DNA from: Gracilariopsis chorda
Lineage: Eukaryota; Rhodophyta; Florideophyceae; Gracilariales; Gracilariaceae
Assembly: GCA_003194525.1 (NCBI GenBank)
Contig: NBIV01000013.1
Location: forward strand, 372,001 to 436,000
Length of the DNA stretch: 64,000 nt
Reading direction: 5' to 3'
Below, one piece after another: positions 28,897 through 61,863 of the stretch. The notes beneath the pieces were generated by a model, which was not told the DNA's origin, did no database searches, and was given only the letters and a program-made list of their open reading frames with translations. How positions within the stretch are numbered: the first letter of the stretch is position 1; each line of letters begins with the position of its first letter. Made by a program: the position numbers and the translations under genes.

Positions 28897-29313
28897 TGCC
28901 CAGTGGTATTGGTGATAGACAGTACTTGTGGAAATTCGCAGTACAAGCCAGAACTCCTTTCCTAGAAGCTACCGGGGGTATGGCAGATCAATTATCATTA
29001 ACACTCCGTCGCCACCCCGGTGTCCAGAACGAACGACTGGAGCCTGAAAACATGTATCCAGCGTAGAAGGCTACAAAAAGGAAGTAATAAAAAGGAGTCA
29101 AAATGGGTCGCCTGGAGTCCGAAGATTTGAGGTTGTGATTCACAACTTGTGAAGGTACAGTATGACAGTATGATACTGTACATAGCTGCTAATCAGGGAA
29201 GGATTGCTAGTCCGCAGTAAACAGACGTCTCTCTCTCTTAGTCCTTAATCCGATTCGTCTGTCTGGCCAAGCAGATATCGGCGTTATACCATCCGCAAAG
29301 ATACTCATCGAAG
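28897..29313. other. Intergenic, divergent
   Basis: Between the ATPAF1 start and the next plus-strand gene. It contains AGAAGGCTAC at 29065-29074. Nothing else is recognised. Confidence 0.5.
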
Positions 29314-30564: not shown

Positions 30565-31473
30565 ACAAATCAATCTCCGCAGTTCATGCCATGACCAACC
30601 CGAAAGCAATGACAGGGATCGACGCCTAGCTAGAAGCGACCAAAAGCTAAACAGCAGAATCCGTTCCAAAAAGCAAGATCCTGCACGATGGCCATAGTTT
30701 CATATTGAACGTCTTGAAAGCAACGCAGGCCCTAAAGAAAACGAGCGGTTGGCGACTCACAACGACTCCCGAACTCTCGATAGAAAAGGAAACACAAGTA
30801 GAAGTTTACGCGAAATCGCAATATAGATACCTTTGGTAGTAAGGACGATCACGTGTTCGATCATACAAAACTTGCTTTTCAATCCGCGATGTACAATGCC
30901 ACACTGGAAAACATCATGCGCGCGATGAGGCTAGATGCTGACCCGGAACATGACTTCTCTCAAGCCGACTTGCTCAGTTTGATAGCTCGCGCGTCAGGGC
31001 GGTAGCGTCAGCTTGGTAGCCCTTCCCTGTGCCCGCAAGTGTCGGGCCGCAACGTTCTGTGCCCTTAACGACACAATCTATATTCACTGCACTTTCCGTT
31101 TTGCGTTTCCGTGTCTACGGAGAACGAGATGACGGTGAAGAGTTTTGGGGTCTTGGTTCGCCAAAAGCAGAGTACAGATTGTCCTTTCAATGATCGACAT
31201 GCACATTCGTGAGTTGGCCCTGTCTGAACACATCAGACGCCATTTCAAACCACTACCCAAACAGCTGAAACCGTAGTACCAAACCTTCGTAGGTAACAAA
31301 CAAAAGTATACATTCAGGCGACAGTTGTGGTTGGTATACTTTACTCTCCTCAGACAGGCTTGCTTTCTCGCTTCTCAATCTTACCAAGTTTCTCATCTTG
31401 GGCAGCGTATCGAAAGTTAGGCTATTTAATGCCGGGTTACTTTGAACACGATAATCGTTTCTGAACTGCACCC
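30565..31473. other. Intergenic; possible orphan terminal exon at about 30842-31005
   Basis: A plus frame ending at the TAG near 31003-31005 reads a coding-like tail (LAFQSAMYNATLENIMRAMR, then ADLLSLIARASGR) preceded by GTAGTAAG, a possible splice acceptor. I found no partner exon. The rest shows nothing. Confidence 0.3.
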
Positions 31474-32604
31474 ATGAGGTTTAGCATACTCCCAGTGAAA
31501 CGCAAAATGCATCCTGGCCATACGTCGAGTGGAATGTCTATAACGCGCCTATTTCCCATTTTTCTTGCTATTCTCTTGTTGTACATGGTGCTGAGAACGT
31601 ACTCTCCGCCTCTGAAGAATGTAACTCTCAGTCCACATGATGGGTCAACAATACTGCATCGATCCTCTAATAGAACTGGAGAAGAACAATCGGGGAGCCT
31701 CTCGAGCACTTTGCAGGACGGCAATAAAAGACCGGTATATGCTATTCCCGGATCACGTCTGCAGCAATCCATTCCAGAATGTGCACGAAACAAGGGAAAA
31801 GCGAAGACCTTCCTGTTCGTATTCATGGGACATAGTGGTTCAACCGCTATGATCTCTGAATTGAGATCACATCCTGTAGTGCATATTGAAGCATCTGAGC
31901 TTGTTGATCATGGCGAGTACGCCAAAAACACAACGCTGGCCTTGCAACACACTCGAAAGTTCTTTAAGCGAACAACAAAGTTTGGGAAAACATCCGGGTT
32001 TAAAATTCGACCGAGTCACATTACCAAGAAACCGCAGGAGTGGGCTGCCCTCATAAGAGAGTTTGACACTCGTATTGTGTGGCAACACAGACATAATCTG
32101 CTGAAACAGGCTGTGGGAGAATACTCATCCAAGTATTTGAATGATAAGGCATCTGTGGAGGGGCTCAAGAGTCAAGAAGAGGCCAAAGCGCGTTGCAACA
32201 CGGGGGTAGGCTGCAGCTTCAAGATTGAAAACTTTAAAGAGTTCCATAGATTTCTCAAAGATGGCTTGCACTCTGATAAGGCCATAGCCGAAGCTGTTAA
32301 CTTGCTGTCAAACGGAAGCTCGTGTGTCCATGCCCTTCCGTACGAAGACTATCTCTACGACAGAAAACTGGCCATGAAAAAACTGCAAGACTTCTTGGGC
32401 CTAACGAATATCGATACGAAGCCTCAACGATACAAAGCCACTGGAGATAATCTTTGCGATGTTGTAACAAACTGGAAAGAGCTCTGCGATAATTTTTATG
32501 CGTGCCATGTTTGGAGGCATATGTTCGATGATTTGCGAAATGACTGCGTTTGTGAATTTACGAATGGGCATGTACAATATTGTGACACTCATTATACGGG
32601 ATGA
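31474..32604 (+). CDS. Type II membrane sulfotransferase
   Basis: A 376-residue protein (ATG at 31474). A short basic cytoplasmic tail, a signal anchor at about residues 25-42 (RLFPIFLAILLLYMVLRTY), a stem, then the catalytic domain. The 5'-phosphosulfate loop of PAPS-dependent sulfotransferases is LFVFMGHSGSTAMISEL; the 3'-phosphate motif corresponds to DTRIVWQHRHNLLKQAVGEY. A family C-terminal segment HALPYEDYLYDRKLAMKKLQ and several cysteines follow. It should act in the Golgi lumen, adding sulfate to a glycan. In red algae the likely substrates are galactans, but the acceptor cannot be read from sequence. Confidence 0.85.
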   Translation: MRFSILPVKRKMHPGHTSSGMSITRLFPIFLAILLLYMVLRTYSPPLKNVTLSPHDGSTILHRSSNRTGEEQSGSLSSTLQDGNKRPVYAIPGSRLQQSIPECARNKGKAKTFLFVFMGHSGSTAMISELRSHPVVHIEASELVDHGEYAKNTTLALQHTRKFFKRTTKFGKTSGFKIRPSHITKKPQEWAALIREFDTRIVWQHRHNLLKQAVGEYSSKYLNDKASVEGLKSQEEAKARCNTGVGCSFKIENFKEFHRFLKDGLHSDKAIAEAVNLLSNGSSCVHALPYEDYLYDRKLAMKKLQDFLGLTNIDTKPQRYKATGDNLCDVVTNWKELCDNFYACHVWRHMFDDLRNDCVCEFTNGHVQYCDTHYTG

Positions 32605-33318
32605 TTCGAGGCTCGGTCGTTGTAACAACGCCAAATGTGCTTGCTAGTAGACTGAAGTGAATATCGGGTGATCAGGCGCATGAATCGTGCACAATGACAG
32701 AATAAATGCAGGGAAAACTCCTCGCAATTCAAGAGTACATTACTGCAACAACTGGGATTAACCTTACGAAGACTGTTCTTCTGACAAGTCGATCGTCTCC
32801 CCTCCTTCTGCAGCTAACGCGTCACAGTTGTTGATAAAGCGAACGAATGGTGGCAAGTCGACCCAACGGACGCAACGGCGGAGATCCAAGCAATTCAAAA
32901 TGCAGTACACGGCACCTTGACCCCAGCGGTCGCAATGTCTGTTTCAATTACTAGGCCCAAGCTCCAAGCCACAGATTAACGAAATCCGCAATGCAGCTGC
33001 GATTCGAATCTCTGCGTTTAGGGAGGACGTGTGTCTGTGTGAAACAAGCAAATGTTTGCAGTGCCACTGTGTTCACTCTTCCTTCTTGCGTAAAACTCGA
33101 TATCAGCGTTTTTCCCAAAAAGATATGGTCACCATTAGTACCGTTGCCACTTCCTTTGCAAGGCGAACAAGTACAAGTAGTAAGCAAGAAGTATGCTAAT
33201 TTTTCATAGCATATCGCCAAGCAATGCATTCGTACACATCGACTTGGTCGGCAAATAACAGAAGTACGTATTTCTCGCCACGCAAAATCGACAAGGCGAT
33301 TTGAATACAACAGGTGTA
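32605..33318. other. Intergenic, convergent 3' ends
   Basis: Nothing recognised; a minus-strand frame at 32951-33310 has no support. Confidence 0.5.
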
Positions 33319-33822
33319 CTATCTTTGGCGCTTTGCCTTTCTGTCAGCCTTTCTTCTTTCTTTCCTGCTCATGAAGGCGTACTCATCAAGTTCTTCTTCT
33401 TCTCCTTGAGTGCCGCTCGAGGAGAAGGGTGATGCACACATTTTGTAAACAGTGAAAACCGGTACGACGAGGAAGACAAGTAGCATCCATTTGGTGAAAA
33501 GCATTCCAACTTGCACTACCATAGTGAGAAACAATAAATCATGGCAGTATTCCAGGAGCCCGGCACCGGAGATATCTGATCCAGCGTCAACGATACTTCC
33601 ATAAGCGTCAAAAGTAGGCTGTGCCGCAGAACGCAGGAACATGTACGGCAGTGCGTATACCATTAGGAGGATTGGAAAGACAATCTGATGAAAGCGAGGA
33701 ATGGAGCGCTTGATGACGAATGGCAAGACATGGAGTAAATTGCTGAAGATAATCGCAGTACGCAGAAGACTCAATCGCTTAGCATTTGCTTTGTACAGCT
33801 TCTTCGCGGATGAGTTGGCCAT
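33319..33822 (-). CDS. TMEM208: TMEM208/SND2-family ER membrane protein
   Basis: A 167-residue protein; the first ATG (33822) gives MANSSAKKLYKANAKRL. Hydrophobic segments lie at about 20-37, 47-63 and two between 92 and 130. The family signature covers YGSIVDAGSDISGAGLLEYC, then HDLLFLTMVVQVGMLFTKWM, matching the conserved region of TMEM208 (a D-G/A-G-D-L turn followed by a DxxxLT-xVQ helix). The tail is acidic then basic (EEEELDEYAFMSRKERRKAD). TMEM208/Snd2 is the membrane component of the SND route, which sends some proteins to the ER translocon without SRP. Confidence 0.85.
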   Translation of the reverse strand: MANSSAKKLYKANAKRLSLLRTAIIFSNLLHVLPFVIKRSIPRFHQIVFPILLMVYALPYMFLRSAAQPTFDAYGSIVDAGSDISGAGLLEYCHDLLFLTMVVQVGMLFTKWMLLVFLVVPVFTVYKMCASPFSSSGTQGEEEELDEYAFMSRKERRKADRKAKRQR

Positions 33823-34343
33823 TTTAATGGCAGCTTCGCTAAAGAGAGCTTCGAAGAAAGTTTGGCACGGCGAGGTCAATGTCGTCTTACAAACTCAACT
33901 TTGCACTCCATGTCCATCAGAGCGACCCGAAACCCCTTTTTGAAAGAGTATGTCTGGGACGAACGGCAATTCTTGCACTTGTGACATCAATCTATTTGTT
34001 CACTCTTCTAAATTATGCCGTGTAAGTGGGGTATTGATTTACAAGTCAGCACACGCGACTGTAAGCCGGTTTGGCTTACCTTAGGGCGCCGCAGGATGCT
34101 GCATGCAAACTCTGCGAACTAACTTACGCACGCTATGCTTTTGCCCTTGATACTTTCGCTCTCTGCCTCGTTCATTAATACCTCTGGCGCCGTTGGAAAT
34201 CATTTAAAGTGCGTTGAACTCGCTTACCAGCGAAAAGCAAGTCGGACGACAACGCTGTTGCCCCGATCCTCCGCTAAACCACCGACATCCCTACGCTTCA
34301 ATTACACCACCAACAAAGATGATGTGACATCCCATCTCAATCA
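33823..34343. other. Intergenic, divergent
   Basis: Between the TMEM208 start and the following plus-strand gene; nothing recognised. A short plus frame (34135-34383) overlaps the next start and might be a 5' exon or uORF. Confidence 0.4.
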
Positions 34344-35378
34344 ATGGTACTGCGCACCAGCTCGGCCCGTCGGAAGCCGTTGAACTACCAAAACGAGCAC
34401 CTCTATCGTCGAATACGCGCTATTCGCAAACAACTTTATCGTCGTTTCGCCATAGTTATAACTCTAATCCGAACATCTCCCAAAATCATAGCGCTCGTAC
34501 TACTCTGTACAATCCCACTCTTACTGATAGCTCGCCGCAGTCTTCGAAAAGAACATCAGCCGGCGTTATGGACCGACCAACTGATAGAGGAACGTTTCCA
34601 ACCTTCCAACATACACACCTTCTCAAATGTTGATGACGCCCTGCAACTGCAGGCAGTCGTGGCAAACGAAACCGATCTCGCCGCCATTGTGCGTCTAAAC
34701 AAACCCAATCCATCGCAAGCTGCAACAATACCCGAACAAGCACCCCGATTGCATCATCTCGCGCGACTACTCAACATTGACTCCCTTACAATTCCGAGCT
34801 ACATAACATCGATAACTTTCTCTCACCTTTTGCAGTCTGGTAGTCGAGCAATCGCACGAAAAGTGGCACTCGCATGTGGCTATCGCGCACTGGCGCGAAC
34901 GCCATCCGACACGACTCTAAGAGCCTCTGTGATGCTACTCTCTCCAACAGACGGGTCTGTGTTTCGCATCCTGGATAAAGCCGCAATCGAACCATATGAA
35001 TGGCGCTCACAACTGCCAAACGCCAAAGAATGCTCTTCCCGCACAAACGACGCAACTTGCCGCAGGATCACGGACATGCTCGTGTTGACATTTGTAGCGG
35101 GTTGCAAGCCACTGGCAGAAGGCGACTTGTGGGTTGTGAATGGGGAGCTTAAACTGGTTGAAGGGGAGTGTTTTCGACCGGGAAGAAATGAAGTGGCATT
35201 GGACTTGATGCAGGTGTACGTTGCAGCTATGTGTGGCGGTAATGCGAATTTGTTGAAGGCGTTACGCCGGGCAACGGCGCTTGGATACGGGATTGGTGAG
35301 CGTGCCGCTGTGGCGGTTGATTCGGTGAACCGGCTTTCACAGAAGAATGTCGGAATTTGCGGAAGACAGACATACTGA
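34344..35378 (+). CDS. Unknown type II membrane protein
   Basis: A 344-residue single-exon frame (ATG at 34344, MVLRTSSARRKPLNYQNEHL). A very basic N-terminal tail precedes one TM helix at about 46-64 (SPKIIALVLLCTIPLLLIARR), giving a cytoplasmic-N, luminal-C topology typical of Golgi enzymes. The luminal part has several cysteines and a conserved-looking block MLVLTFVAGCKPLAEGDLWV followed by NGELKLVEGECF. The block faintly recalls the metal-binding end of FAM20-type secretory kinases, but the key Asp is not in place, so I do not assign it. Hypothetical. Confidence 0.65.
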   Translation: MVLRTSSARRKPLNYQNEHLYRRIRAIRKQLYRRFAIVITLIRTSPKIIALVLLCTIPLLLIARRSLRKEHQPALWTDQLIEERFQPSNIHTFSNVDDALQLQAVVANETDLAAIVRLNKPNPSQAATIPEQAPRLHHLARLLNIDSLTIPSYITSITFSHLLQSGSRAIARKVALACGYRALARTPSDTTLRASVMLLSPTDGSVFRILDKAAIEPYEWRSQLPNAKECSSRTNDATCRRITDMLVLTFVAGCKPLAEGDLWVVNGELKLVEGECFRPGRNEVALDLMQVYVAAMCGGNANLLKALRRATALGYGIGERAAVAVDSVNRLSQKNVGICGRQTY

Positions 35379-35907
35379 TCGTGACAATGCCAAAGTTGTG
35401 TGCGCCGTAGTAGCTTAGCTCCTTCAGCAGCCAAGCTTCACGAAGGATGTGCAAAGGATGAACTTGGCAGTACCTAGTCGCCTTCCGTTCTTCCGTTCTT
35501 TCGTTCTTTCGTTGCCAACACAATGAACATTTCGAATGAAGGTGTATGTAGTACTGTATGCACAGGTTAGCGAACCCTTTTCACCATTCGACGTGGGGGC
35601 ATGGCAACGCTTGCCTACAAACTTTTGAGTAAAGGGTTATAACTCAGTGAGGGGAGTGTTATGCGTTCGTTGTTGAGTGAAAAGTGCGAGCAACAAATTC
35701 AAGGGGAGATATACAGTTCAGTTCACCATTCGTAGGAGAGGAACGATTCAGTGAATAATGTCATAGTCAAAACGACTAGGCCACATGTCCGGGTGTGAAC
35801 TGATGATAGTCGCAGCTGTTATCCCTATACACGTATATCAACGACCACAAATAATAGTACAAGGGTACAGGAGACATTTGTCATACGCGCGCAGGGCTCG
35901 CCTCTCA
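35379..35907. other. Intergenic
   Basis: Convergent 3' region with AAAGGGTTATAAC at 35631-35643; no gene recognised. Confidence 0.5.
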
Positions 35908-36255
35908 CTATCTGAGTGATGGTGATTGTGCCTGGCGGCGACCATACGTGGCAGCGAACGCGCACGGCACGGCTCGGGTGGGGTTTGTCAAGGGAGCGCG
36001 CAAAGACATCTCCGGAGACAAAGAGGCTTGTGCTTTGTGTTCACCAGAGGACCTTTTGACGAGTCGCGAATAAAACTTTAGTAAGGCGGCGGCGGAGGCT
36101 GCGGCGCTGTTGACGACGCTGACGGCGAGTTCTGAGGTCGTTACGTGCGCGCGCGATATGGCGGCACATGCGCGCAATGAGCGGGCGCCACCGATGCATT
36201 TGCACGAGTGCCCGGGTTCATGGCGCGCACGGCGGAGCGCATCCTTTTTGGCCAT
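35908..36255 (-). CDS. Small hypothetical protein
   Basis: 115 residues from the ATG at 36255 (MAKKDALRRARHEPGHSCKC). The N-terminal half has four cysteines (CKCIGGARSLRACAAIS), then an Ala/Ser-rich helical region (VSVVNSAAASAAALLKFYSR) and a basic tail. No family recognised. The start is chosen because the frame further upstream has different, low-complexity composition. Weakly supported. Confidence 0.35.
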   Translation of the reverse strand: MAKKDALRRARHEPGHSCKCIGGARSLRACAAISRAHVTTSELAVSVVNSAAASAAALLKFYSRLVKRSSGEHKAQASLSPEMSLRAPLTNPTRAVPCAFAATYGRRQAQSPSLR

Positions 36256-41981: not shown

Positions 41982-41991
41982 CGCGTTCACG

Positions 41992-42078
41992 CACCTCAGG
42001 CGGGGCTCGAACCCGCGGCCATCAGGTTAAAAGCCTAACGCTCTAAATTGCGATGTGGACCAACTGAGCTACTGAGGC
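41992..42078 (-). tRNA. tRNA-Lys (UUU) with an insertion in the D-loop
   Basis: The acceptor arms GCCTCAG / CTGAGGT pair, with one G-U. The D-stem is GCTC/GAGC. The anticodon stem TTAGG/CCTGA closes the loop CTTTTAA, anticodon UUU. The T-arm is GCGGG-TTCGAGC-CCCGC. Without the extra 14 nt at 42045-42058 the D-loop is an ordinary AGTTGGTA, so the gene is a normal tRNA-Lys plus an insertion. CCA is not encoded. Both internal promoter boxes survive: the A-box lies 5' of the insertion. Confidence 0.93.
42045..42058 (-). other. 14-nt D-loop insertion, candidate ectopic tRNA intron
   Basis: The sequence CCACATCGCAATTT (minus strand) separates AGTTGGT from the final A and 3' D-stem. Ectopic D-arm introns are known in red algal (Cyanidioschyzon) nuclear tRNAs, where a tRNA endonuclease removes them. 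Exact splice borders are ambiguous by a nucleotide or two. Confidence 0.75.
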
Positions 42079-43274
42079 CGATTGCGCTGCAGAACCCGCC
42101 TATTTGCAAGATATTTATAGGACAAAATTTTTCTGGAGTGCATACTTGGCTTCAGCGAACCTTTGCACCAACAGATCCCGTTAAGCGATTCTCGAGTTCT
42201 GCTACTGTTGGACCAAGGTACAACAGTACCAAGTCACATGCGATATACGAACCAAATTTGGTACGTACAACGAGTCTCCAGGGCGCCAGTTGGACTTCGG
42301 CATTGGCCTTGTGGAGGTAGCAATGCGTGCATACGACGTGCATGTGATTTCCCCCAGTCGCCAGGTCGCTCCCTCCGAGCACTCATCACGTCAGCAATGC
42401 CTCTCATCCTCACGCAATAGCTCTACAACTTGCAACAAGATCTGTCCCATCAAGAATCGGACAAACAGAAGCATCGTCAAGAGACGTAGGGGAACAGTGC
42501 TTCCTCCGAAAGTCAGGTCATTACGTCTTCAATAGTTCTCCGAAACCACGCTTGACGAGAAAGCTGGCGTAATTCCGCCTCTACGCGTTGTCCGACACTG
42601 AACAACACCTTCAATTTTGTACACCTTGCGTTTATTGCAGGCTACAGCAAGCTGTTCTTGTTTGATCCCAGTTAGATAGCGACTACAACAACACACCTGT
42701 GTTTGGTACACATGTGTTCAACAGCTTTACCGTTTCGTTAGATGTCTGCTATCTTACACTTCTTTTTCTGCGTACCTCTCGGCTGTCTCTGGTGCAACAC
42801 GACAGCGCGCTTGCGAGTCATGTCACGATATAGAAACTGTGCCCAGCCCACTACCCTCTTTTTATGCATGAACGTCACTGCAATCATGATTGCATCACGT
42901 ATCAACCTGTGTACACAAGTTATCCTATAATAGCGCACTCGTCCCTAGGGTTTCGAGACATATTATGTACTTGCCGGACTCACTGGCTCTTAATTCAAGT
43001 CAACATGCTGCAAATAACTTCGAGCATGTCTCTTCACCGTCTTGCAATTAAAACTCCATGTACCGTGTTCATTCGACGTCCATTAACCTTCCCGTACACC
43101 CTACACCTTTCCAGTTTAATTGCAGTGATATTTCAACATGCCGACACCATACTGCTGCCATCAACACTGTTTAACAGCTTCTTCACCAGCGCAGCAAGGC
43201 CGGCATTGCGATTTCTGCCGCATCATCGCCCGACAACTTTTTCGACCTTCGCACTGACGCTCTGCTAAACAATC
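42079..43274. other. Intergenic
   Basis: No gene recognised between tRNA-Lys and the FkbM gene. Confidence 0.45.
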
Positions 43275-44249
43275 ATGCTCAGTTTCATCGCGGCTATCTT
43301 TCTAAGTCTTGTGATTGCCATAGCAGCAATTCCGTTGCCCTTTGCAGCTCTAAGACAGAAACGGGTGTTTACCACAAATGTTTTGGACGGTTTCAAGAAG
43401 GATCACCCCCAACTGTTCCCCCCCGGTCTAGGAAGCAAGAATGCCAGTCGAATGGTTGTTCTAGATATAGGAGCAAACAATGGTGATTCATACACTCTCA
43501 GAGCTTATAAGGAAGGACATACCGTCGTTGCATTTGAACCCAGTCCAATGGTCAAAGATCTTTTTAAGGATGTCATGAACGAAAATCGTGTCAGGCTGAC
43601 TGTCGTTAACGGAAGCACTGGAGTACCTTCTAAAGCACAAGGCGTCACTGCTTCGTCCCTGAAGATCGGCGACAGGAACAAAGTATATCTAATTCCGGCT
43701 GCTCTGTCAAAGAAGACTACAATCCTTAATCTGCACCAATCTCCGTGTTCAGATAAGCGAAAGTGCGGTAAGATCAATCGTCTCGTTGAAGACTCTAAAT
43801 CAAAGAATATAGTCAAGGTCCCGGTGTACCGATTGGATGACATTTCCTTCCCAGTAGACCCAGAGAAAGTATGGTTTATGAAGATAGATGTGGAGGGCCA
43901 TGAGCTGGAAGTTTTGCAGGGAGCAAGGAATTTCATCAAGAGCGCTAAGATTCCATACATTGGCCTTGAATTTGCCGCACATGGAAGGGCAGGGATTCAG
44001 TGGGGAGTTGATCTTTTGGAAGAGCTGCACAAACAACAGTATTCTTGTTACCATTTGAGAGGATTTGGAAAATGTCATGATCGGGAACACAGGTCCCCGA
44101 GTCTCAAGTGTAACTATCCCTTCTCCGTGAACGACTGGAAACAGGCTCCTACGTTTGAGGAATACGCAGAAACTTTTGAAATCTCTGCAAATAGGCCGAA
44201 AAAGGCTAGTCTTTCAGACATTATGTGCGTCAGGAGCAAACGTGAATAG
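43275..44249 (+). CDS. FkbM-family SAM-dependent methyltransferase, secretory
   Basis: 324 residues from the ATG at 43275. An N-terminal hydrophobic helix (MLSFIAAIFLSLVIAIAAIP) is a signal peptide or anchor. The FkbM core has motif I VVLDIGANNGDSYTLRAYKE, the acidic strand VVAFEPSPMVKDLF, and the family hallmark KIDVEGHELEVLQGARNFI. Cysteines in the C-terminal half (CYHLRGFGKCHDREH) suit a luminal protein. FkbM enzymes O-methylate sugars and other small molecules; with the sulfotransferase 11 kb away, polysaccharide modification is a reasonable guess, but the acceptor is unknown. Confidence 0.87.
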   Translation: MLSFIAAIFLSLVIAIAAIPLPFAALRQKRVFTTNVLDGFKKDHPQLFPPGLGSKNASRMVVLDIGANNGDSYTLRAYKEGHTVVAFEPSPMVKDLFKDVMNENRVRLTVVNGSTGVPSKAQGVTASSLKIGDRNKVYLIPAALSKKTTILNLHQSPCSDKRKCGKINRLVEDSKSKNIVKVPVYRLDDISFPVDPEKVWFMKIDVEGHELEVLQGARNFIKSAKIPYIGLEFAAHGRAGIQWGVDLLEELHKQQYSCYHLRGFGKCHDREHRSPSLKCNYPFSVNDWKQAPTFEEYAETFEISANRPKKASLSDIMCVRSKRE

Positions 44250-49280: not shown

Positions 49281-49423
49281 CATGGACTTAGTAAAGCTTT
49301 CCGAGTATTTCGACGATCATGAAGACTTTCGCCAGTGAAAGATAGTCTTCTTCGAAAGTCTATTTATCATGTTTTCTTTGAGCGCTTTAGTTGGAGGAGA
49401 AAGAAAAGACGGTTCATGGCGAC

Positions 49424-50255
49424 TGTGGTACAATGCCCCAAAGAGGAAAAACACCGAAAGACGTTCGGGATCTTCCTCTGACGAGGTGAACCCAGTTGGG
49501 TAGAGCCCTCCCAGAGGTGTCACGGCGAAGCCGGTTTGTAAGACCAGGGACACCTGTCGCGACTTGCGCAGTGAGGTGAAGGCGAAGAATCGGTATCCGC
49601 GTGAGCGGGGTGTGATCCTCAGTAGAGGTATGTTTCCACGTAAGTGGGGATGTGTGAGCGGGTGCACACAGGAGAGCCGCGGGTAGCGGGATGTACTACC
49701 CTGAAAGGGGGAAAGGAGGAGAGTGAAGGGAAAGGAGGAAGAGGAGGCGAGGCTGAGTTGCGAGAGCGACGAACAAATACGGCAATGCCGGTGGACAGGA
49801 CTCCCTATACAGGGCGAAACACCAATGTGATTGGAACAATTTTACTCCCAAGGATGGGTCTCTTTAGATGTGCAAGGGGGTTAGATGTCCCGTGGTTTAC
49901 GGCGTTTCCCTCCAAGGAGGAGTAGAGCACGCGCGCAAGCGGCAACAACTAGAGCCAATTCCCCAGGTTGGGGTCCCTTGTTGGGGAAGTTTTACTGGTG
50001 CGACGGCAGTGCGCCGTCGCACTAAGTACTAGCTTCCAAGAAATGGGTGTGAAAATAATAAATAATATTAACTAAAATACTCCAAATTTCGTGGCAACAT
50101 CCACTACTGTGGCCAACCGCCAATTGACCCAAAACCGTGTCCCACGTGTCCATACCCACCGTTGTGGGGCGTAGTTCATATACACACTACACAACCGATA
50201 ATATCGGGAAAGCGTTCAAGTACCAAGAATCCCTCCTTGAGGGCGTTGCACTACA
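49424..50255 (-). repeat. 3' LTR of the gypsy element (mosaic sequence)
   Basis: 832 bp, from TGTGGTACAA to TTGCACTACA on the plus strand (TG...CA ends with a near-perfect 10-bp inverted terminal repeat). Its first ~430 bp are almost identical to the solo LTR at 61022, but its last ~400 bp are almost identical to its partner LTR at 59354-60180. Confidence 0.95.
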
Positions 50256-50267
50256 TATCCCCCCCCT
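50256..50267 (-). promoter_or_regulatory. Polypurine tract
   Basis: AGGGGGGGGATA on the minus strand directly abuts the 3' LTR, the position where plus-strand DNA synthesis is primed. It fixes the element's orientation. Confidence 0.8.
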
Positions 50268-50511
50268 AAGACGGGAAAACGACCGCGGACGCGGATGGTT
50301 CCCAGACGAAAATGGGTGGTAAAAGCGCGTGCGCCTTTTCCGTTTCTCCTTTCCTGGCATAGCCAGCTAGTGGAGTATAGTGTTGTGGGGAGCTAGCTGC
50401 TCCCTTGAATAAACTTCCCCGTTTAGAACGGTGATTCTCGTTTGAGTTCCCCGTCTTCGACGGACCTTGCCTTGTTATCCTTTCCTATCGCCCTCCGTTC
50501 GCGCGGCAACG

Positions 50512-53500
50512 TTACCCGACTTGGGCATAAACCAGCGTGGCTGGGGCTGCAGTTCCCGTTTGACGGTGGTATCGCACGACCTGCGATCGTGGGAGGTGTT
50601 CAATTGGCTCCCACGTATCCCCACTGGGGTCGTACCCGTACCAGCGGACGCGGTATTGTAGAATACCATCCTGGTCCCAGGTGTGTCCGACAAGTCGGTC
50701 TACTACGAACTCTCGTTCGTAGACCTGCCGGCCGTGCCGGGTGGTGGTTGTACTCCCTTGCGGGGGCTGCCCGCTGTGCGGTACAATGTCCCTTAGCAGG
50801 TTGTTCGGCGATAACTCCGGCGTTGCCGTGCGCTGTGATAGCGGCCGCTGCTCATGCGGGAAGATATCCCTCAAGAGGGTGTGTGGTGCCACGGTTTTCA
50901 CCGGTAAGTCATTCCCCATTGGGGCAGGTTCATTTCCGCTTTCGCGGTATTGCGGGCGAACCGCCAGTCGGCGGGGGACTTGGGCTCCGCCTTCGCGGTT
51001 GAGCTCACGAACCGCGAGTTTGCGGGAAGATGACCGCTCCTGCGGAATCGGCATTTCCACAATCCCCTGGGGGGTCCCGTGCGACACGGTGATTGGGTGG
51101 CAAACCGCCTCCCTGCCAGGCGCACAAGCGCTCTGCACCATACGTTCCGGCGATGCCGTGGTGTCCCCGGCTACTGACGGGTTGCCTGGGGATAGCTCCG
51201 GTACACCGGTATTTTGGTCAAAATTCCCCTTTGGGGGGTGCCGGGCAGGTGCCGATGACACCCTTTTCAGGGGCTTGGCCGCTAATTGCGGTGCACCGTC
51301 TCCACGCGGAGGAGCAGCGTCCGGTATGACCGGTTTCGAGCGTGCGATGGCGTGCGCTTTTTCCCAGTTCCTCTGTTCTTCCCCGCAGCGTTGCGGGAGG
51401 TGGCGCAAATTATTCCCCGGAACGGGGGCTTCAATTCCGTCGATGACGGGAGTTGTTTCCGGCGCTTGTGGGCCAGGGCCTGAAGCTTCGGCTGCGGCTT
51501 TGAAGTGCAATCCTCAAGGAGGAAGACTCAGCGATGCCCTGTGGGCTTGGTGTTTTTGCCGCTTTCGCGTGTTTATGATTACTACCGCTATTAGCGGGTG
51601 TCTCAGCCCTCAGCGGATCCGCGCTGTGCGCCAGGTGCACACCTGTGCATGCGCCGTGTGCCGCCCAAGGCGTGAGTGGACCACGTGTGACACGGATAGT
51701 CAAGAGGAGGTTGGCACCACGGTGTGGACATTTAGTTAACTTATATTTATTATTTATTATTTATCTACGCTACAGTAGGGAGATTACTACACTATATAGT
51801 GGCTCGGCGACCTCGCCCTGACACTGAGTAAACTTCCCCAACCAGGGTTCTTGGCTCTAAGTCTTTTCCGCTTTCGCGAGTCTTCTACACTCCTCGGAGG
51901 TAAAGCCGCGTTACTAACGGTAGACTTATCCACCCTGCGTCACTAGGAGTATCACCGCCTTGGGCACTTGTCACTTCATTCACCACCGCCGTGTTCTCGC
52001 CCCTGTATAGGGTTCCTGTGTACCTTTTTTCGTGGTCCCGTTGGCCCACACCCCCGTCGCCCCCAATCGGGCATCCCCCGTATTTCCCTTACCCCACTCT
52101 CGTGGTTCCTACCCCTTTTTGTGGTTGCTCGTCACCGCTGACGCGTGTGTCTCGTGCCGGTATCCCGTGACGTCTTCCCCCACTTACGTGGACTCGTACT
52201 CCTTGGAAGGGCTGTTTTCCCATTCGTGGTGATCCTAATCCTACCGTTTCAACTCTCCCCGCTTGGCGTGATGGTGAGCCTCGGCTTTACAACCCGACTT
52301 CGTCTTGCTCATCCGGAGAGGCTCCGTTCGCTGTGTTACCCTCCAGAGGGGAAGATTCCGAACGTCTTCGTGTGTTGTCCCGCCTGCGGGTATTGCACTA
52401 CAAGCTTGGCTGCCTTTTTCCCCAGGTTGGGTGTGGGGATTTCCCAGAGGCACTGGTGTATCTGGGCGCCTCTTCTCCGCGGGGCGCGTGTCTGCTGGAC
52501 CTAATTGAACCGCTTCCGCGGGGGCTTCCGCCAATGGCGGGTTCGATGCATCTCTCTGCCCTGGGGATTGGGGGCAATCGTCACCATACTCCCTTATCGG
52601 GGATCCTCCCCTGACAGGGGTGTGCGGTAGTTGCGCTTCAACTTCCCGTGTAGCACGGTATATTTCCCGCGTTTGTGGCGATGCCTCCGGGGATGGATCG
52701 GGCGATTGCATTTCCGCTGCTGCGGTATTGGAGGGAGGCTTCTCGTTTTCCCGTGACAAACGGTGTATTTGCCGCTTTTGCGGGGCCTGCGCGTCTGGTT
52801 CCTGTTGCACAGCACTGCCCGGGAACGGGGGATTAGTGTCGCGTGACATACTCCGTGCTCCACGGTCAGTGTTCCGTATGTTACGGTGTGTTTCCCGTTG
52901 TGACGGCGATATCGTTCCTCGAAAACGAGTGTTCTCCTCCCCCTCCTTAGACGGAGCGGCGGGATAAGGGATAACATTCCCCGCTTGGCGGGTATAAATG
53001 CGCGCCAGTGGGGCGGGCGTGGTAGGGGCGGGCGCTGAGAGGCCCGAATTACCCAGCTGAGCCGGTGAGTCCGACAGGGTCGGTAGGTCTGAGAGTCCCA
53101 GGCTGGGGTGTGGTAGTATCGTAGGCCTAGTACTCCCGGATGGTTCCGGTGTTGCAGAGTCCGTAGAAACGCGGTTGCCTGGATCCAGGACTACCTCTGA
53201 CGAGGGAGGAGGGGCAAGGACAACACGATCACGGGAGATCCGTTCGTGCGTGTCGCCCATCTCTACCACGACAGTGTCGGTGTTCACAGAGATGACCTTG
53301 AATGGTCCATCCGCCACAGGCGAGAGTTTACGGCGCTTCTCCCGTTCCGGTTTGTAGTACTCCTTCCTTATGAAGATGTAGTTATTCGCCCGAATCGGGG
53401 ACGGTTTCCCTCGCAAGCGAGCATCAAAATCCCGCTTGTAAGCGGCTTGGGCCCGTGCCATCGACATCCGCGCAGCGGGGACCAGCTTGGAAAGCCATTG

Positions 53501-56500
53501 CTTCCATTGCTGCCGGTAGATACCCACTAATGGGAAATTGGCCAAGGTAGCTTGGGGTTCCAGCGCCACAGGCGGGGGTGTTCTAGATAGAACCAGCTCG
53601 AATGGCGAAACTCCGGTAGTCTGGTGTACCTGCGTATTGTACGCGTAGGTTACCGCATCAGCGTACATGTCCCAGTTCTTTGGGTGGTCTGCGAAGTAGG
53701 AACGTAACGCCGCGAGTAACGTCCGGTTAAACCGTTCAACTTGCCCATTACACTGGGGGTGGTAGGTAGTCGTGAACAAGTTCTTGACATCCAGGATGCG
53801 ACAAACATCCTGGAAGAACTTGCTCACGAACTGTTTCCCGTTATCGGAGAGCACCTCCACAGGGGGACCGTAGACGAAAATCCAGTGCGTCACCATAGCC
53901 TGGGCCACCGTGAGAGCGGTTATCCTCCGAAGAGGGACAGTCCGTACCAGCTTAGAAAAGCGGTCGGTAATGACAAGTAGAAACTTGTTTCCACGTTTCG
54001 TGGTGAGTAATGGTCCGAGAATATCGATCGCGATAAACTCTAGCGGCGCCCTTGCGGGGAATAGTTTCATCTTCTTCGCATTTTTGCGGAGCTTGACGCG
54101 ATTCTTCGCGCATTTGCTACAAAACCGCACGGTTGCGTAGCAATCCACCGTCATGGCGGGCCAATAGAAATCCCTTCGCAGGGTTAGGTAGAGTTTCCTC
54201 CCACCTGGGTGACCTCCAATGGGGGCGTAGTGTGATAGATGTAACACCCGCGACTGCAGGGAATGAGGTACCACAATCTGTGGGCGGGCTTCGACCTTCC
54301 TTACGAGTTAGCCTTTGTCGTTTACCCCGAAAGGGAGATCTTCACCACCGTTAAGACGGGCACGAATCCTCGTACAGAATGGGTCGCCGAATTGTTCTCG
54401 GATCATTTCTTCCGGTGATACCGGTACAAAGTTTCCCGGTAACGGGTTCTCAGGTTCATCTCGCGATGCGAGTAGTTCGTCAAAATCAGCATCCTCGTCC
54501 CAGTTTTCTGGCCCAGCCTCGACGGCACATTCCGGATCATCCGGTTCTATGGCCATGAAACATGGGACTTCATCATCCTCCGTTGGGATTGCTTCCCCAC
54601 TTGTGGGTAACCGCGACAGAGCGTCGGCTTGGGTGTTCTGCGCGCCCTTCTTATAAATGACTTGAAAGTCATATTCCGCGAGGCGGAGTCTCCAGCGCAT
54701 GAGGCGTCCCGATGGGTCGGAGATATTCATTAACCACCTCAATGAGGAATGATCCGTGTACACGGTGAAGTGAACTCCCATAAGGTAGGGGCGCAGAGTG
54801 GTCATCGCCCATACGACGGCGAGGCACTCCTTCTCCGATACGGAGTAGTTCCGCTCATGAACATTGAGCGAGCGCGACCAATAACCAATTGGATGTCGTT
54901 CCCCCTCGGGGGTGGTTTGAAAAAGAGCACACCTGACTTGGTAGTGGCTTGAGTCCGTATCTACGGAGTATGGCAACCCAAGTTTTGGAAGATGTAGGAT
55001 TGGTGCTGATGTGACAGCCTCCTTCAAGGAGTTAAAAGCTTCCGATTGCTCGGGGGTAATTGTTCCCAGTTTTGGGGGGTTCCCCTTTCGCAACGACGCG
55101 TTTAGGGGCGCCGCAGTATCCGAAAAGTTCGGGATAAACCGTCGATAGACGTTGACCAGCCCCAAAAAGGAGCGCAGTTCCGTTTTAGTACGGGGTTCTT
55201 TCGCCTCAACGAGGGATTTGAGCATTTCGTCAACTTGAGGGTAATTCCCTCATCGCGGAGTACGGTCAGCACGTCTCGGACGTGAGTGAGATGGTCGTCC
55301 AACGAGTTGGAGAAGATGATAATATCATCAAGGTAGACCAGACAACTCCGCCACTTAAAGCGGTTGAGTAGAATATCTACTGCACGCTGAAAGGTGGCGG
55401 GGGTGTTGGTTAACCCAAATGGCATCCGCTTGAAGCGGTACGTTCCTGCGTGGCAGGTGAATGCGGTTTTGTCGCGATCCTCCTGTCTGACAGGTACTTG
55501 CCAATATCCCCAATTGGCATCAAGGGCCGTGAACACGGTGGCGTCTCCAAGGGAGTCAATGCACTCGTCCATACGAGGGATAGGGTACGTGTCCCTAACG
55601 GTCACGGCATTGAGCCGGCGGTAGTCGACACAGAACCTCCAGGTTCCGTCGGCCTTTAAAGCCAGTACAACTGGGGATGCCCAGGGTGATTGAGCGGGCT
55701 CAATCACACCTGCGCGGAGCATCTTGTCCACTTGGGACTGCTCCTCTTCCCGAGCTTTCGGACCTGCCCTGTAAGGGGGTTGTGCAACCGGTCGCGCACC
55801 GGGGATTAAATCGATCCGGTGTTCCGTTGCGTTAATCTCGCCAAGCGAGCCATCCCACATTGTGGTGAATTCCCGTAACATGGTACGGAGTTTGTCGCGG
55901 TGCGACTCTGGCACGTGGCTAAAGTCCAGCGCTTCAAGTGCCTTTTCCGGATCAATCCGGTCATTGCTCGATGGAGCATTGTCCTGTGGAACAGGTGTGG
56001 TTCGCAATTCCGAGTTACTCGGTATGTTCGACGCTGAAGTAGCGGTTTCCTCCCCCTCCTTAGACTTGACGTCTTCGGACGGCGGGGCGAACTCCTCAGA
56101 AGAGGTGGTAGCTCCGAGTACATCGGCGGCTGTCATCTTTGTTGGCAGCATTCCCATAGGATGGGGGGTTACACTCCCAATTACTTGGTGTTTTACCAGA
56201 TACTGGGGGTGTTTGCCAAGGTTGGCAACCAATATCCGGAAAGGAACATCCGGGGAAATGGAGACAATTCCATTAGCCAGCGCCAGCTGGGATTTCTCGT
56301 ACAACGAGGCGAGCGGTTGTATAACCCGAAGACCGTGTTGACGGGAGTTTATTTGCACCCAGACTTGGGACTCAGCTGGTATAGAAACCGAGGCAGCGAC
56401 GCGGAGCTTGGTGGACTCGCGGGACGCGGGCGTTGGTTCCTGCGCAGCAGGGAGCGTAACTTGTTTCCGAGAGGACCGCTTTAGCGGGCGGCGAACAATC

Positions 56501-57117
56501 GGAACCGACGATCCGTCGTCAAGTTCTACACGCCTGAGGCGGGGCCTGATTGCGTTGACAAATCTGTCGCAGTAATCACATCCCAGTATGACTGGTGCTG
56601 CCAATGAACGGCAAACGATGAAGTCCAACTTCACCACAGAGGTACCAAGTCTCACGACGAGGACCACTGTGCCCACCGTTTGTAACGGATTGTTGTTCGC
56701 ATCCGAAATGTCGGGGACCGCGTCAGAGCGGATACGCGACCGCACAAGCGGGGGTAACAATGATTCCACAACAAAGTTGGGGCCTGCACCTGTATCCAGG
56801 ACGGTGAGAAACCTCACCATAAACTGGGGATCAAGGCCAAGGTCGGCATAGACCTTATAATTGCGCTTGGCCAAGACCAAGACTCTACCGGGAATCCGGG
56901 GATTTTTACTCCGTATCCACGGGCGACGCAACACACCAAGGTGCGCAGAGTCCGCGTCAGCGGTGTCTTTCCTCGAGAGGACTTTCACCGGGGAGCGAGG
57001 CGAGGACGCCTCGGGCGCCAACAGCCTCGTTCTTGAGGACGCCTCTCCCAAAGGGGAGACTCCCTCAGTTAGTTTTCCGCCTTCGGCGGTGGGTTGGTTT
57101 CCTCGACAACGAGTGCT
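50512..57117 (-). pseudogene. pol: Chromovirus pol: protease, RT, RNase H, integrase, chromodomain (broken)
   Basis: The frame opens at 57117, overlapping the gag end in the -1 frame, with no nearby ATG. In order: protease (TVLDTGAGPNFVVE); RT with ALDANWGYWQVPVRQEDRDK, RMPFGLTNTPATFQRAVD and the YLDD box; RNase H (YSVDTDSSHYQ... VYTDHSSLRWLM... DALSRLP); integrase with an HHCC finger and D-D-E residues in FIAIDILGPL, VLSDNGKQFVSKFF and NGQVERFNRTLLAALRSYFA; a long Pro/Gln-rich linker; and a chromodomain (REFVVDRLVGHTWDQDGILQ, YRVRWYGYDPSGDTWEPIEH). Breaks: a frameshifting deletion at about 55226, TAA at 54308-54310, and a nested LTR at 51501-52402. Without that LTR and one 5-bp duplication, linker and chromodomain are in one frame. 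Confidence 0.93.
51501..52402 (+). repeat. Nested, diverged solo LTR in inverted orientation
   Basis: 902 bp from TGAAGTGCAA to TTGCACTACA. Read on the plus strand it aligns along its whole length with the reverse complement of the flanking LTRs: the TTTAGTTAA/TTATTTATTATTTAT block, AAACTTCCCCAAC, CCTGTATAGGG, CCACTTACGTGG and CCGAACGTCTT occur in the same order. Sequence identity is much lower than among the other LTRs. Flanks are GGCTT (51496-51500) and AGCTT (52403-52407), a 5-bp duplication with one difference. It splits pol between integrase and chromodomain. Confidence 0.87.
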
Positions 57118-59243
57118 TCATCCCGTTGACGGGGGTTTCTACCCGCATAAGCGGGGGTTGCAACGGATGGTTGCGTGATCTCCCGAATCGGGGTGTATGA
57201 AGCTTGCCGCGCACGCGGGGTCTGTGGTAGGGCGTGGGAAAAGTCCGTTTTAGCACGGAGGTAGGAAGCCGTTGGGACGCAACGTTTCTCCTCTGGAGTG
57301 AGGGCCTCATAGTTTGCCACCACCGTGGCCATATCCTTCAGTGAACAAATACACTGAGGTGAGGTATGGCCATGGGCATAGCACAGGTGGCGAATGAGAG
57401 CCAATACCGCGACACGCGGATTATTATTCCGAGTATCGGAGAAGCGAACCGCAGGGCGGGTGTCAGTCCATCCAGGCCGTTGATAACGGGATTGACCGTT
57501 TGAAAACGGGAGTCGTTGGAGTTGAACCCGACTGTTACCACCGTACAAAACGGGGTCTTCGGTTCCTGTATCACGGGCCATCTCCGTCGTTGACGGTAAA
57601 TCGGTGGTTGGAATCGAGACACCATCCCCCTGCACTAAAATCACAGTATCAAATCCCTGTCTAGGGTTCCCATCCGCAGTGAGCGGGAGCGATGAGGAGT
57701 CGCTCTCCATCACCAACGCTTTGTCGGATTTAGACCGATTGTTCGGAGTTCTTGCACGAAGTGCATCCCCTTCCGCTCCAGCGTGTTGGACCAGCTCGAG
57801 ATAGGTGATCCTCCGCTTGTCCTCCCGATAACGGGTAACTAAACTCCGGATTGCCGGTTGAAGACCATCGATGAACATGGTACTGCGCTCCCCAGCGGGG
57901 TATACGTTACCACATCTGTGGAAAGCCTTGTTAAGGCGCACCGAGTAGTCGGTCTCGGTCTCTCCAGCACGCCGGCGTGTATCTAGCAAAGCGAGGATAG
58001 CCTGCTGAATAGCGGTGTTTGTAGCGTAGGAGCGCAGACGATTCTGCACAGCCTCCGGCCAGCAAGTAACTCCTCCCTCGGAGGCACGAGAAGATCCTCT
58101 GACAGAGTTGTATTGGTCCTCCGCCACTCCCCGTAAGAAATACGGTAAAGCCAAATAGGCTTGTCCCTCATTCATACCGAGGATATCGGCCTCCGCTACA
58201 AAGCGGGATAGGAAATCCAGTACTAGGACTGGGTCCTCTCCAGTAAAATACTGGTTGCGGAGCGAGAGCTGCATTCGCTTAATGCATTCTCGCACCTTTC
58301 CCGTACCACGGGGCGTACGTCCAAGTGACGAGTCTTCAAGCCGGTAGTACCGGTACGATAAAAGCTTCCGGTAATCCGGGTGTGTCGGTTTCAATTCCCG
58401 GAGACCGGGGTGTCTTCTCCCCTTCTGGCGGGTTCGGATCACACCTTCAGTGGCCGATGACCGCTTCGAGCGGGAGGAGTAGCCTCGCTTCTCGTCCTCC
58501 GAGTCAGAGTCCGAGGAGCTCGAGCTAACCGAATGGTTTCGGGATGAGTCCGACGATGTCGAAGAATCGGAGTCCGAATATTTTCGGTGGTGTTTCCGTC
58601 GATGACGGCGTTTCTTCTTCCCAGCAAGCTGGTCGTTGTGCGATGCCTCGTTTACCGGATCATCCGGGGATGGTTTGTCCATGAGGACGAACTGCTCCAG
58701 CGTCTCCAGGCGGGCACCAATCCGATCAAATCGGGCTTCAACTCCTTCGATGAAGGTGGCGGGTTGTCCCAAACTCTCCAACACGGAGTTGACGTCAGAC
58801 CGTAAAATACGGAGTTCCTAGGCGACCTCCTTTACGGGGGTTGCCAAGACCACCTCTTGGAGGGATTTTAGTTCCCCTACAAGGGTGTCATGGGCGGTCC
58901 ACAGAGCGCGGACCTGGGATTCCAGGGAAATCCCCTGGGGGGTGTCATCGCCCGTTCCACGGGGGTTTGAAGCCGCGACAGCGGGAGCGGGCCGGGGTGC
59001 CTGGGGCACTGCGGCAACAGCCGGAGTCGATGCTGCATTCTCCTGCGGGGGTGATAACGAGGGCAAAAGGAGGTTCCGGGGTTCCCGGTCGGGGGTATCA
59101 TTCCGCGATGAAGCGGCGCCAGCACGGCTGGAACTTGTCCGTATAGCGATACGGGGTACGAATCGAACTTCGGAAGTGTCCGCGTTGTCGCGGGAGCAAC
59201 TAAGCGTAACCACTGGCTCCGCATCGGAGGGATTTCTCGACAT
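57069..59243 (-). pseudogene. gag: Chromovirus gag, one in-frame stop
   Basis: The frame starts at ATG 59243 (MSRNPSDAEPVVTLSCSRDN) and ends with TAA at 57069-57071, interrupted once by TAG at 58818-58820. Residues before and after that stop form one continuous coiled coil (VRALWTAHDTLVGELKSLQE; then ARFDRIGARLETLEQFV). A basic/acidic linker precedes the retrotransposon gag domain (MQLSLRNQYFTGEDPVLVLD, AYLALPYFLRGVAEDQYNSV, TDYSVRLNKAFHRCGNVYPA). The end has a C/H patch (LCYAHGHTSPQCIC) in place of a standard CCHC knuckle. Gag forms the virus-like particle and packages element RNA. Confidence 0.88.
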
Positions 59244-59334
59244 GAGAAAATACCGTTACGACGGGAAACGATCACGGAACTTCCGGTAAATAAAAACAAA
59301 CCTCGTAAGAGGGAAAGGAAAACAAAAACCGATT

Positions 59335-59350
59335 CTAGGTCGGGAGACCA
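59335..59350 (-). promoter_or_regulatory. Putative primer-binding site
   Basis: On the minus strand, three bases after the 5' LTR, the sequence TGGTCTCCCGACCTAG starts with TGG, as expected for a site complementary to a tRNA 3' CCA end. The tRNA species was not identified. Confidence 0.6.
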
Positions 59351-59353
59351 CTT

Positions 59354-60180
59354 TGTGGTGCAATGCCCCAAAGGGGAAAAACACCGAAAGACGTTCGGGA
59401 TCTTCCTCTCACGAGGTGAACACAGTTGGGTAGAGCCCTCCCAGAGGTGTCACGGCGAAGCCGGTTTGTAAGACCAGGGACACCTGTCGCGACTCGCGCA
59501 GGGAGGTGAAGGCGTAGAATCGGTATCCGCGTGAGCGGGGTGTGATCCTCAGTAGAGGTATGTTTCCACGTAAGTGGGGGCGTGTGGGCGGATGCGCACA
59601 CGGGGGCTGCGGATAGCGGGAGGTGCTACCCTAAAAAGGGAAAAACGAATGGCGAAGAGGAGGAAGAGAAGGGCAAAGTGAGTCGCGGGAGCGACGAACA
59701 GATACGGCAATGCCGGTGGACAGGACTCCCTATACAGGGCGAAACACCAATATGATTGGAACAATTATACTCCCAAGGATGGGCTTCTTTAGATGTGCAA
59801 GGGGGTTAGATGTCCCGTGGTTTACGGCGTTTCCCTCCAAGGAGGAGTAGAGCACGCGCGCAAGCGGCAACAACTAGAGCCAATTCCCCAGGTTGGGGTC
59901 CCTTGTTGGGGAAGGTTTACTGGTGCGACGGCAGTGCGCCGTCGCACTAAGTACTAGCATCCCAGAAATGGGTGTGAAAATAATAAATAATATTAACTAA
60001 AATACTCCACATTTCGTGGCAACATCCACTACTGTGGCCAACCGCCAATTGACCCAAAACCGTGTCCCACGTGTCCATATCCACCATGGTGGGGCGTAGT
60101 TCATATACACACTACACAACCGATAATATCGGGAAAGCGTTCAAGTACCAAGAATCCCTCCTTGAGGGCGTTGCACTACA
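59354..60180 (-). repeat. 5' LTR of the gypsy element
   Basis: 827 bp with ends TGTGGTGCAA and TTGCACTACA. It contains at least a dozen short perfect hairpins, for example CCCCaaaGGGG (59366-59376), CCGCgtgaGCGG (59527-59538) and a 10-bp stem with 5-nt loop (59923-59947). As the 5' LTR it should carry the promoter, reading toward lower coordinates. Confidence 0.95.
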
Positions 60181-60340
60181 GCGACGAGAAGTGCGCTTGA
60201 GCGGCCTGTGGGTGTTCCAAACAACAAAGTTGTTCCAAAATTGCGTCGTGCGGAGTCATTTTCACTTATGTTTTCAGTGCATGGTCATGAAATGGTACAG
60301 AGAAATGATTAGATATTCGACAAATGTTGTGTGTACACAA

Positions 60341-61021: not shown

Positions 61022-61863
61022 TGTGGTGCAATGCCCCAAAGAGGAAAAACACCGAAAGACGTTCGGGATCTTCCTCTGACGAGGTGAACCCAGTTGGGTA
61101 GAGCCCTCCCAGAGGTGTCACGGCGAAGCCGGTTTGTAAGACCAGGGACACCTGTCGCGACTTGCGCAGTGAGGTGAAGGCGAAGAATCGGTATCCGCGT
61201 GAGCGGGGTGTGATCCTCAGTAGAGGTATGTTTCCACGTAAGTGGGGATGTGTGAGCGGGTGCACACAGGAGAGCCGCGGGTAGCGGGATGTACTACCCT
61301 GAAAGGGGGAAAGGAGGAGAGTGAAGGGAAAGGAGGAAGAGTAGGCGAGGCTGAGTTGCGAGAGCGACGAACAAATACGGCAATGCCGGTGGACAGGACT
61401 CCCTATACAGGGCGAAACACCAATGTGATTGGAACAATTGTACTCCCAAGGATGGATCTCTTTAGGTGTGCAAGGGGTTAGAGGCCCCTTGGTTCACGGC
61501 GTTTCTCTCCAAGGAGGAGTTGAGAACGCGCGGAAGCGGCAACAACTAGAGCCAATTCCCCAGGTTCGGGGTCCCTTGTTGGGGAAACTTTAATGGTGCG
61601 AAGGCAGTGCGCCGTCGCACTAAGTACTAACTTCCCAGAAATGGGTGTAAAAATAATAAATAAAATTAACTAAAATTATTAGAAATACTCCACATTTCGT
61701 GGCAGCATCCACTACTGTGGCCAACCGCCAATTGGCCCAAAACTGTGGCCCACGTGTCCATATCCACCATAGTGGGGCGTAGTTCATATACACACTACAC
61801 AACCGATAATATCGGGAAAATAGTCAAGTACCAAGAATCCCTCCCTGAGGGCGTTGCACTTCA
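61022..61863 (-). repeat. Solo LTR of the same family
   Basis: 842 bp, TGTGGTGCAA to TTGCACTTCA. Flanks GGGAT and AAGAT do not form a clean 5-bp duplication, so the copy is old or was rearranged. Its first ~430 bp match the 3' LTR at 49424 with about four differences, while its second half is clearly diverged (single-base changes and a short insertion near 61671-61685). Confidence 0.93.

Follow-up and report, generated by a model that had tools for sequence, protein, structure and literature searches.

Why would a retrotransposon be filled with short hairpins, in its coding sequence as well as in its long terminal repeats (LTRs)? This question is raised by a Ty3/gypsy LTR retrotransposon, here called family A, that lies on the minus strand at 49424-60180 of a 64,000-nucleotide stretch of the genome of the red alga Gracilariopsis chorda (contig NBIV01000013.1, positions 372,001 to 436,000), hereafter referred to as the window. 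A first-pass annotation of the window had listed 32 hairpins in this element and its nested LTR, and all 32 exist; in every case the stated ends close a perfect stem of 4 bp or more, and 27 of them begin with CC. The high density that it had proposed is also borne out. Perfect stems of at least 5 bp with loops of 1-5 nt occur at 3.0-5.2 times the number found in dinucleotide shuffles in all eight tested parts of the element (z 4.0-15.3), as compared to 0.76-1.57 times in the thirteen 4-kb bins that lie outside the element, among them two with additional LTRs of the family. The stems likewise exceed shuffles among synonymous codons in all six pieces of open reading frame (ORF) examined, with 42 versus 10.6 in gag and 45 versus 11.8 in the reverse transcriptase (RT) piece. 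The excess is seen only at loop lengths of 1-5 nt, with a maximum at 3 nt (70 versus 8.0) and none at 0 or 6-12 nt.

The first-pass annotation described these hairpins as generic palindromes. Palindromes are indeed present, but this description misses a fixed design. The unit consists of 5'-CC, two or three free Watson-Crick pairs, a loop of 3-4 nt and GG-3', with a total length of 12-13 nt, and most of the listed hairpins fit it. Stems of 4 bp that open with CC number 283 versus 28.8 expected (9.8-fold), while those that open with GG number 40 versus 25.1 expected (1.6-fold). The pair beyond the CC/GG foot is avoided (0.15 at length 13, where chance is about 0.25). There are 73 13-mers with five pairs, versus about 2 expected, and 109 12-mer units, versus about 8.5 expected. 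Since the sequences in which this CC unit was counted are also those from which it was defined, the raw excess is partly selected for; the tests of conservation, compensation and shared variants described below compare sequences and are independent of it. Stems of at least 5 bp that touch no CC unit still reach about 2.5 times expectation in family A and in two of three related families introduced below (C and N), and 1.2 times in the third (B). A search with Rfam covariance models gave no matches at E ≤ 0.1 within 49300-60300. An A following the GG was considered as a coding-strand signal and rejected, since codon phase explains it in coding DNA (106 observed, 109.6 expected); in the family A LTR it follows 12 of the 21 units.

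The element holds 223 CC units, 205 of them non-overlapping, at random spacing and spread over the LTRs, gag and pol. The 5' LTR (59354-60180) contains 21 units (19 non-overlapping). The gag-like ORF (57069-58817) contains 43, versus 4.2 in synonymous shuffles, and the corresponding values are 37 versus 6.1 for the ORF with RT (55102-57117; PF00078), 21 versus 3.7 for the ORF with RNase H (54308-55249; PF17917/PF17919) and 32 versus 7.1 for the integrase ORF (52403-54307; PF17921, PF00665), which reaches the nested LTR. All of these lie on the minus strand. Thus, the element carries, over coding and LTR sequence alike, an array of short hairpins of one architecture, at about 8-25 per kb across the clade to which it belongs.

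That clade comprises four families, A (the window element), B, C and N, whose pol proteins are 58-73% identical and whose DNA is mostly about 70% identical where it can be aligned. All four carry the units, at 4.6-14 times the counts in dinucleotide shuffles and 4.5-10 times those in synonymous-codon shuffles; three further loci (L062, L065 and L068), being close duplicates of B, C and N, do not count as independent. The densities are 20 units per kb in A, 15 in B, 9 in N and 7.6 in C, and 25 and 9 in the LTRs of families A and N (LTR A and LTR N), respectively. No families intermediate between the four were found among eight further loci. In seven of seven other retrotransposon loci of the same genome, the units are at chance. 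These are four Ty3 loci (L066, 2 units versus 1.6 expected; L067, 1 versus 1.9; L073, 0 versus 1.0; and L077, a near-copy of L066, 0 versus 0.4) and three copia loci (L069-L071; 3, 0 and 0 versus 1.7, 1.9 and 2.5). None of 22 distant Ty3 loci, which lie on contigs of prokaryote assemblies, has an excess of CC units (z -2.1 to 1.6; GC 0.46-0.63), and in some of them generic stems, but not CC units, are modestly enriched (up to 1.6-fold, z 3.3). Searches for relatives returned none from viral contigs, and from genome contigs first none and then these 22 loci; closer relatives, with RT identities of 57-68%, are represented here by protein sequences only. The window DNA between elements contains 32 units in five stretches, with about 34 expected; one host stretch without a recognised element (20001-36000) has 17 versus 9.7 (z 2.5), and the others are at or below chance. 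The array is restricted to this clade among the elements tested, and within the window the CC unit marks the elements of the clade, solo LTRs included, against host DNA.

These controls bear on one alternative explanation, namely that the hairpins are an artefact of base composition or codon usage. The GC content of the element (0.54-0.58) is indeed above that of its surroundings (mostly 0.44-0.50). However, dinucleotide and synonymous shuffles are both far exceeded, the loop-length cut-off is sharp, and control Ty3 loci spanning a GC content of 0.46-0.63 have no CC-unit excess, so we regard this explanation as refuted here.

Are the units kept over time? We sought the units of one family at the aligned place in another, taking each family pair both ways, for a total of 549 directed comparisons of coding units. 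The exact unit centre is common to both families in 140 of these, versus 3.2 after rotation, and the centres lie within 3 nt of one another in 194, versus 39.8. Since the majority of units are not common to the families, there has been much turnover of sites. Summed over six groups, all four pairs are kept with identical sequence in 108 cases, versus 15.0 expected from site-wise substitution, and with changed sequence in 35, versus 8.5. The 35 compensated cases represent 20 distinct sequence pairs at 11 sites, the clearest of which (55426-55438, minus strand) lies under the RT motif YRF[K/N]R and has one pair that is C-G in A, A-T in B and T-A in N. Synonymous sites give a similar picture. Identity at four-fold sites is 0.44-0.53 in stems, as against 0.35 in loops, 0.24-0.43 in flanking sequence and 0.31 elsewhere, and the odds ratios for stem versus nearby sites, stratified by base and neighbouring-residue identity, are 5.0, 2.3, 1.6, 1.7, 1.9 and 1.5 (z 4.5, 3.5, 2.6, 2.4, 3.4 and 1.7; above 2 in five of six sets, which overlap in sequence and are not independent). 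Generic stems of at least 5 bp of any kind are near background in their covariation, with 43% of the pairs in which both bases have changed being Watson-Crick versus 35%; joint change above expectation emerges once the comparison is restricted to the CC unit.

The LTRs allow the same comparison outside coding sequence. The integrase ORF is followed by a nested solo LTR of family N (51501-52402, plus strand; 8 units; flanks GGCTT/AGCTT), which, judging from the alignment and from family N loci with LTR and RT matches on one strand, lies in the opposite orientation to its host element. Turned to its own sense, it aligns with the outer LTR over the full length (score z 43 versus shuffles). Ten of the 19 LTR A units have an LTR N hairpin within two columns, versus 2.8 expected by rotation, some with both arms changed, and five of the eight LTR N units fall on an LTR A unit, versus 0.8 expected. 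Identical hairpins at aligned places include CCACTTACGTGG. Changed stems are found next to the LTR ends, where CCCTC-AAG-GAGGG of LTR A (60156-60168, minus strand) corresponds to TCCTC-AAG-GAGGA of LTR N (51511-51523), and CCCC-TTT-GGGG at the other end (59366-59376, minus strand) to CCCGC-CT-GCGGG (52379-52390). These are two of four paired changes that the first-pass annotation had quoted; a third (59547-59558/52201-52210) is also at an aligned place, but the fourth (51536-51546) lies in a stretch that has no counterpart in the outer LTR in this alignment.

Joint change of both arms is seen between families, in the coding and LTR cases just described, but not within them. Among the copies of a single family, none of 141 altered cells is compensatory; the change is in one arm only in 81 of 81 for A (of 2232 cells) and in 60 of 60 for N (of 1890), as expected of recent decay. 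In 31 copies of LTR A, singleton variants fall on stems (30 of 160 sites) as they do elsewhere (127 of 667), while variants common to at least three copies are found at 0 of 160 stem sites versus 47 of 667 elsewhere (Fisher p 7e-5, which is optimistic because subfamily variants are linked). This avoidance of stems by shared variants but not by singletons, together with the one-arm changes, fits purifying selection in the propagating lineage followed by neutral decay after insertion.

The first-pass annotation had also suggested, as an alternative to selection, that a copying process regenerates the palindromes, either hairpin-templated repair or template switching by the RT of the clade. Perfect stems, clade restriction, the turnover of many sites between families and the scarcity of covariation in the generic stem set are all in keeping with such a process. 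It predicts frequent joint change, however, while the kept units are mostly identical and compensation within families is nil; stems are conserved at synonymous sites, and the CC/GG foot would go unexplained. We consider mutational copying very unlikely. Selection to keep structure, which the annotation had offered for RNA or DNA, is the part of its proposal that stands: the shared register, the compensation, the matching LTR positions, the synonymous conservation in stems and the distribution of shared LTR A variants support the conclusion that selection maintains the nucleic-acid structure of the units. The lack of tolerance for G.U pairs and the small extra folding energy described below speak against plain RNA folding.

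What, then, would read these units? Because the inner pairs are free yet must match, a reader of fixed double-stranded sequence fails to explain them, whereas a folded single strand or a cruciform would. Together, the data point to a signal, not previously recognised, that acts in the single-stranded form of the element. With any Watson-Crick pair accepted at the inner positions, a folded single strand would be what is read, and the fixed CC/GG foot suggests that a protein reads it. The element's own Gag or nucleocapsid would bind many degenerate putative sites on the genomic RNA, thereby condensing and packaging it; single sites would be dispensable, so that individual sites may be gained and lost while the overall number is maintained. 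We tentatively favour this prediction of dispersed nucleocapsid or packaging sites on genomic RNA, at somewhat below even odds. Stability alone would not lead one to expect the preference for CC over GG, which is in keeping with a reader of the foot, and scattering over the LTRs, gag and pol at random spacing is as would be expected for many interchangeable sites. Put more broadly, there is close to an even chance that this retroelement clade overlays its own whole genome with a second, distributed code. Each element would have about 200 mini-hairpins, interchangeable and all of one geometry, that its own nucleocapsid reads on RNA or that act in complementary DNA (cDNA); their positions would be free, their number would be maintained, and codon choice would be bent round them.

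Several results weigh against packaging sites on RNA. LTR N (30 LTRs, 8 units) shows no depletion of shared variants in stems (3 of 66 sites versus 20 of 836). G.U pairs, which are normal in the stems of RNA, are not favoured (11 versus 25.4 expected in one count and, in another, 1.7-fold versus 18-fold for Watson-Crick pairs). The native RNA context gives no help to unit formation (0.396 versus 0.413), no loop motif common to the units was found, and a Pfam search of the gag-like protein returned no zinc knuckle. Finally, RNA folding is little stronger than in shuffles: the mean z of 120-nt windows on the coding strand is small (-0.3 to -1.3), that of the nested LTR is +0.1 on the minus strand, which was used for it in the folding and unit-count analyses (the unit counts being strand-independent), and +0.3 on the other strand, and the two strands give similar values, which also resemble those of control elements (-0.4 and -0.7).

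The folding values also bear on the possibility that RNA folding as such is selected along the whole genome, as in the genome-scale ordered RNA structure (GORS) of RNA viruses, either for stability or as a way to evade silencing, and with no specific reader. Hairpins do extend along the whole transcript, and z is about -1.1 to -1.5 in the coding sequence and LTR of family A. Nevertheless, families B, C and N and the nested LTR give z values from near 0 to -0.7, similar to those of controls; folding energies well below those of shuffles, the mark of GORS, were not found; G.U pairs are not tolerated; and stability alone does not predict a defined foot or the preference for CC over GG. We judge selection on folding as such to be improbable.

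A stronger competitor, possible though still rather unlikely, is that the hairpins are selected in DNA, either while the cDNA is single-stranded in the course of reverse transcription or in the form of small cruciforms. Their role would be to bind a protein of the element or the host, to shield the cDNA or to limit self-priming. Strict Watson-Crick pairing, the missing RNA-context signal and the equal folding of the two strands would all follow, and the loops are A/T-rich with an excess of central TA (16 versus 3.9). Near-units on the coding strand more often have A.C (G.T on the other strand) than G.U, 37 versus 20 at equal expectation, which hints at the other strand; yet this hint is weak and comes from one of several tests, and G>A is not favoured among LTR singletons (0.143, versus 0.181 for C>T). 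DNA hairpins of 4-5 bp are only marginally stable, and we know of no single-stranded DNA reader with a preference for a CC/GG foot, both of which count against the proposal.

Dispersed packaging sites on RNA have a parallel in RNA viruses, in which packaging signals are described as numerous degenerate stem-loops spread along the entire genome, including its coding sequence (PMC6281560). The array resembles them in having many stem-loops above chance with no single one expected to be essential. Packaging signals are defined by a shared motif, such as the recognition motif in the loop of the hepatitis B virus signal (PMC7612645), while here the foot is fixed, the loop is free and the signal is known from sequence alone. 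GORS shares with the array a structure that runs throughout coding sequence, but the array is made of discrete short units with barely raised folding energy. The RNA of the yeast Ty3 element is structured as well, with a folded core that takes up about 20% of the molecule and a short 5' palindrome proposed for dimerisation (PMC11381356); the passages available contain no repeated hairpin unit, and the word covariation does not occur in the main text. Likewise, the available passages on the genome of Gracilariopsis lemaneiformis (PMC5970526) report LTR elements, Gypsy and Copia, as the commonest repeats and do not mention hairpins. We found no description of such hairpins, or of dispersed packaging signals, in retrotransposons in the open-access literature searched by title or abstract start, most subscription journals being outside that search.

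Dispersed packaging signals have been argued for in RNA viruses, whereas in this clade the signal is visible directly in the nucleotides, and the same genome supplies controls in the form of sister families with units and other Ty3 and copia elements without them. Short synthetic hairpins would thereby offer a direct test of how an LTR element selects or condenses its RNA or cDNA.

By the features tested, the family A element is of the chromodomain type of Ty3/gypsy. It shares with chromovirus-type elements its LTRs, a gag-like ORF, the order RT-RNase H-integrase (from Pfam matches and ORF order), a chromodomain and a 5-bp duplication, and differs from them in the hairpin array, which is missing from the four other Ty3 loci of this genome and the 22 distant loci. 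The target duplication is GCGAC on both flanks, the LTRs have TG...CA ends, and pol is split by stops. On the minus strand are also the 3' LTR (49424-50255), a candidate primer-binding site (59329-59350) that adjoins the 5' LTR and occurs once in the window, and the ORF with a C-terminal chromodomain (50512-51500; PF00385, E 7.6e-11). The same strand holds two additional LTRs of family A, one cut by the window start (1-648) and one that is solo as far as seen (61022-61863), which carry units and were spotted as clusters of them. In the 5' LTR, 59923-59947 forms a longer perfect hairpin, with a 10-bp stem and a 5-nt loop (GTGCGACGGC...), that is unlike the short units and recurs, with at most one change, in the window's other LTRs of family A. 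A stretch of LTR A at about 59640-59700, together with the matching part of other LTRs, is C/T-rich on the coding strand and far more variable among copies than the remainder, also in length.

The gag-like protein has a stretch that is first basic and then Ser/Asp-rich, with a weak SR-25 match (E 0.017); its short Cys/His cluster CYAHGHTSPQC looks by eye like a shortened zinc knuckle, which Pfam does not report. Of 2677 candidate gag matches, 75 were scored, and the 74 others among these are 94-95% identical to the window gag, and the family N LTR has at least 39 other full-length copies at 97-98% identity among 40 scored. About 40 RT (RVT_1) matches have the identical score of 139.3, and in several of them the reading frame stays open for 1490 codons; family C looks to have recently multiplied.

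The remainder of the window includes host genes, recognised by Pfam, for a SET/Rubisco-LSMT-like protein (3885-5597), an aspartyl protease (7044-9491), a carnosine N-methyltransferase (11727-12824) and a UFM1 ligase (21938-24310; 61% and 60% identical to proteins of Agarophyton chilense and Gracilaria domingensis), all on the minus strand, and for an FkbM-type methyltransferase (43269-44249) on the plus strand. ARAGORN places a tRNA-Ser (AGA) at 41991-42078 on the minus strand.

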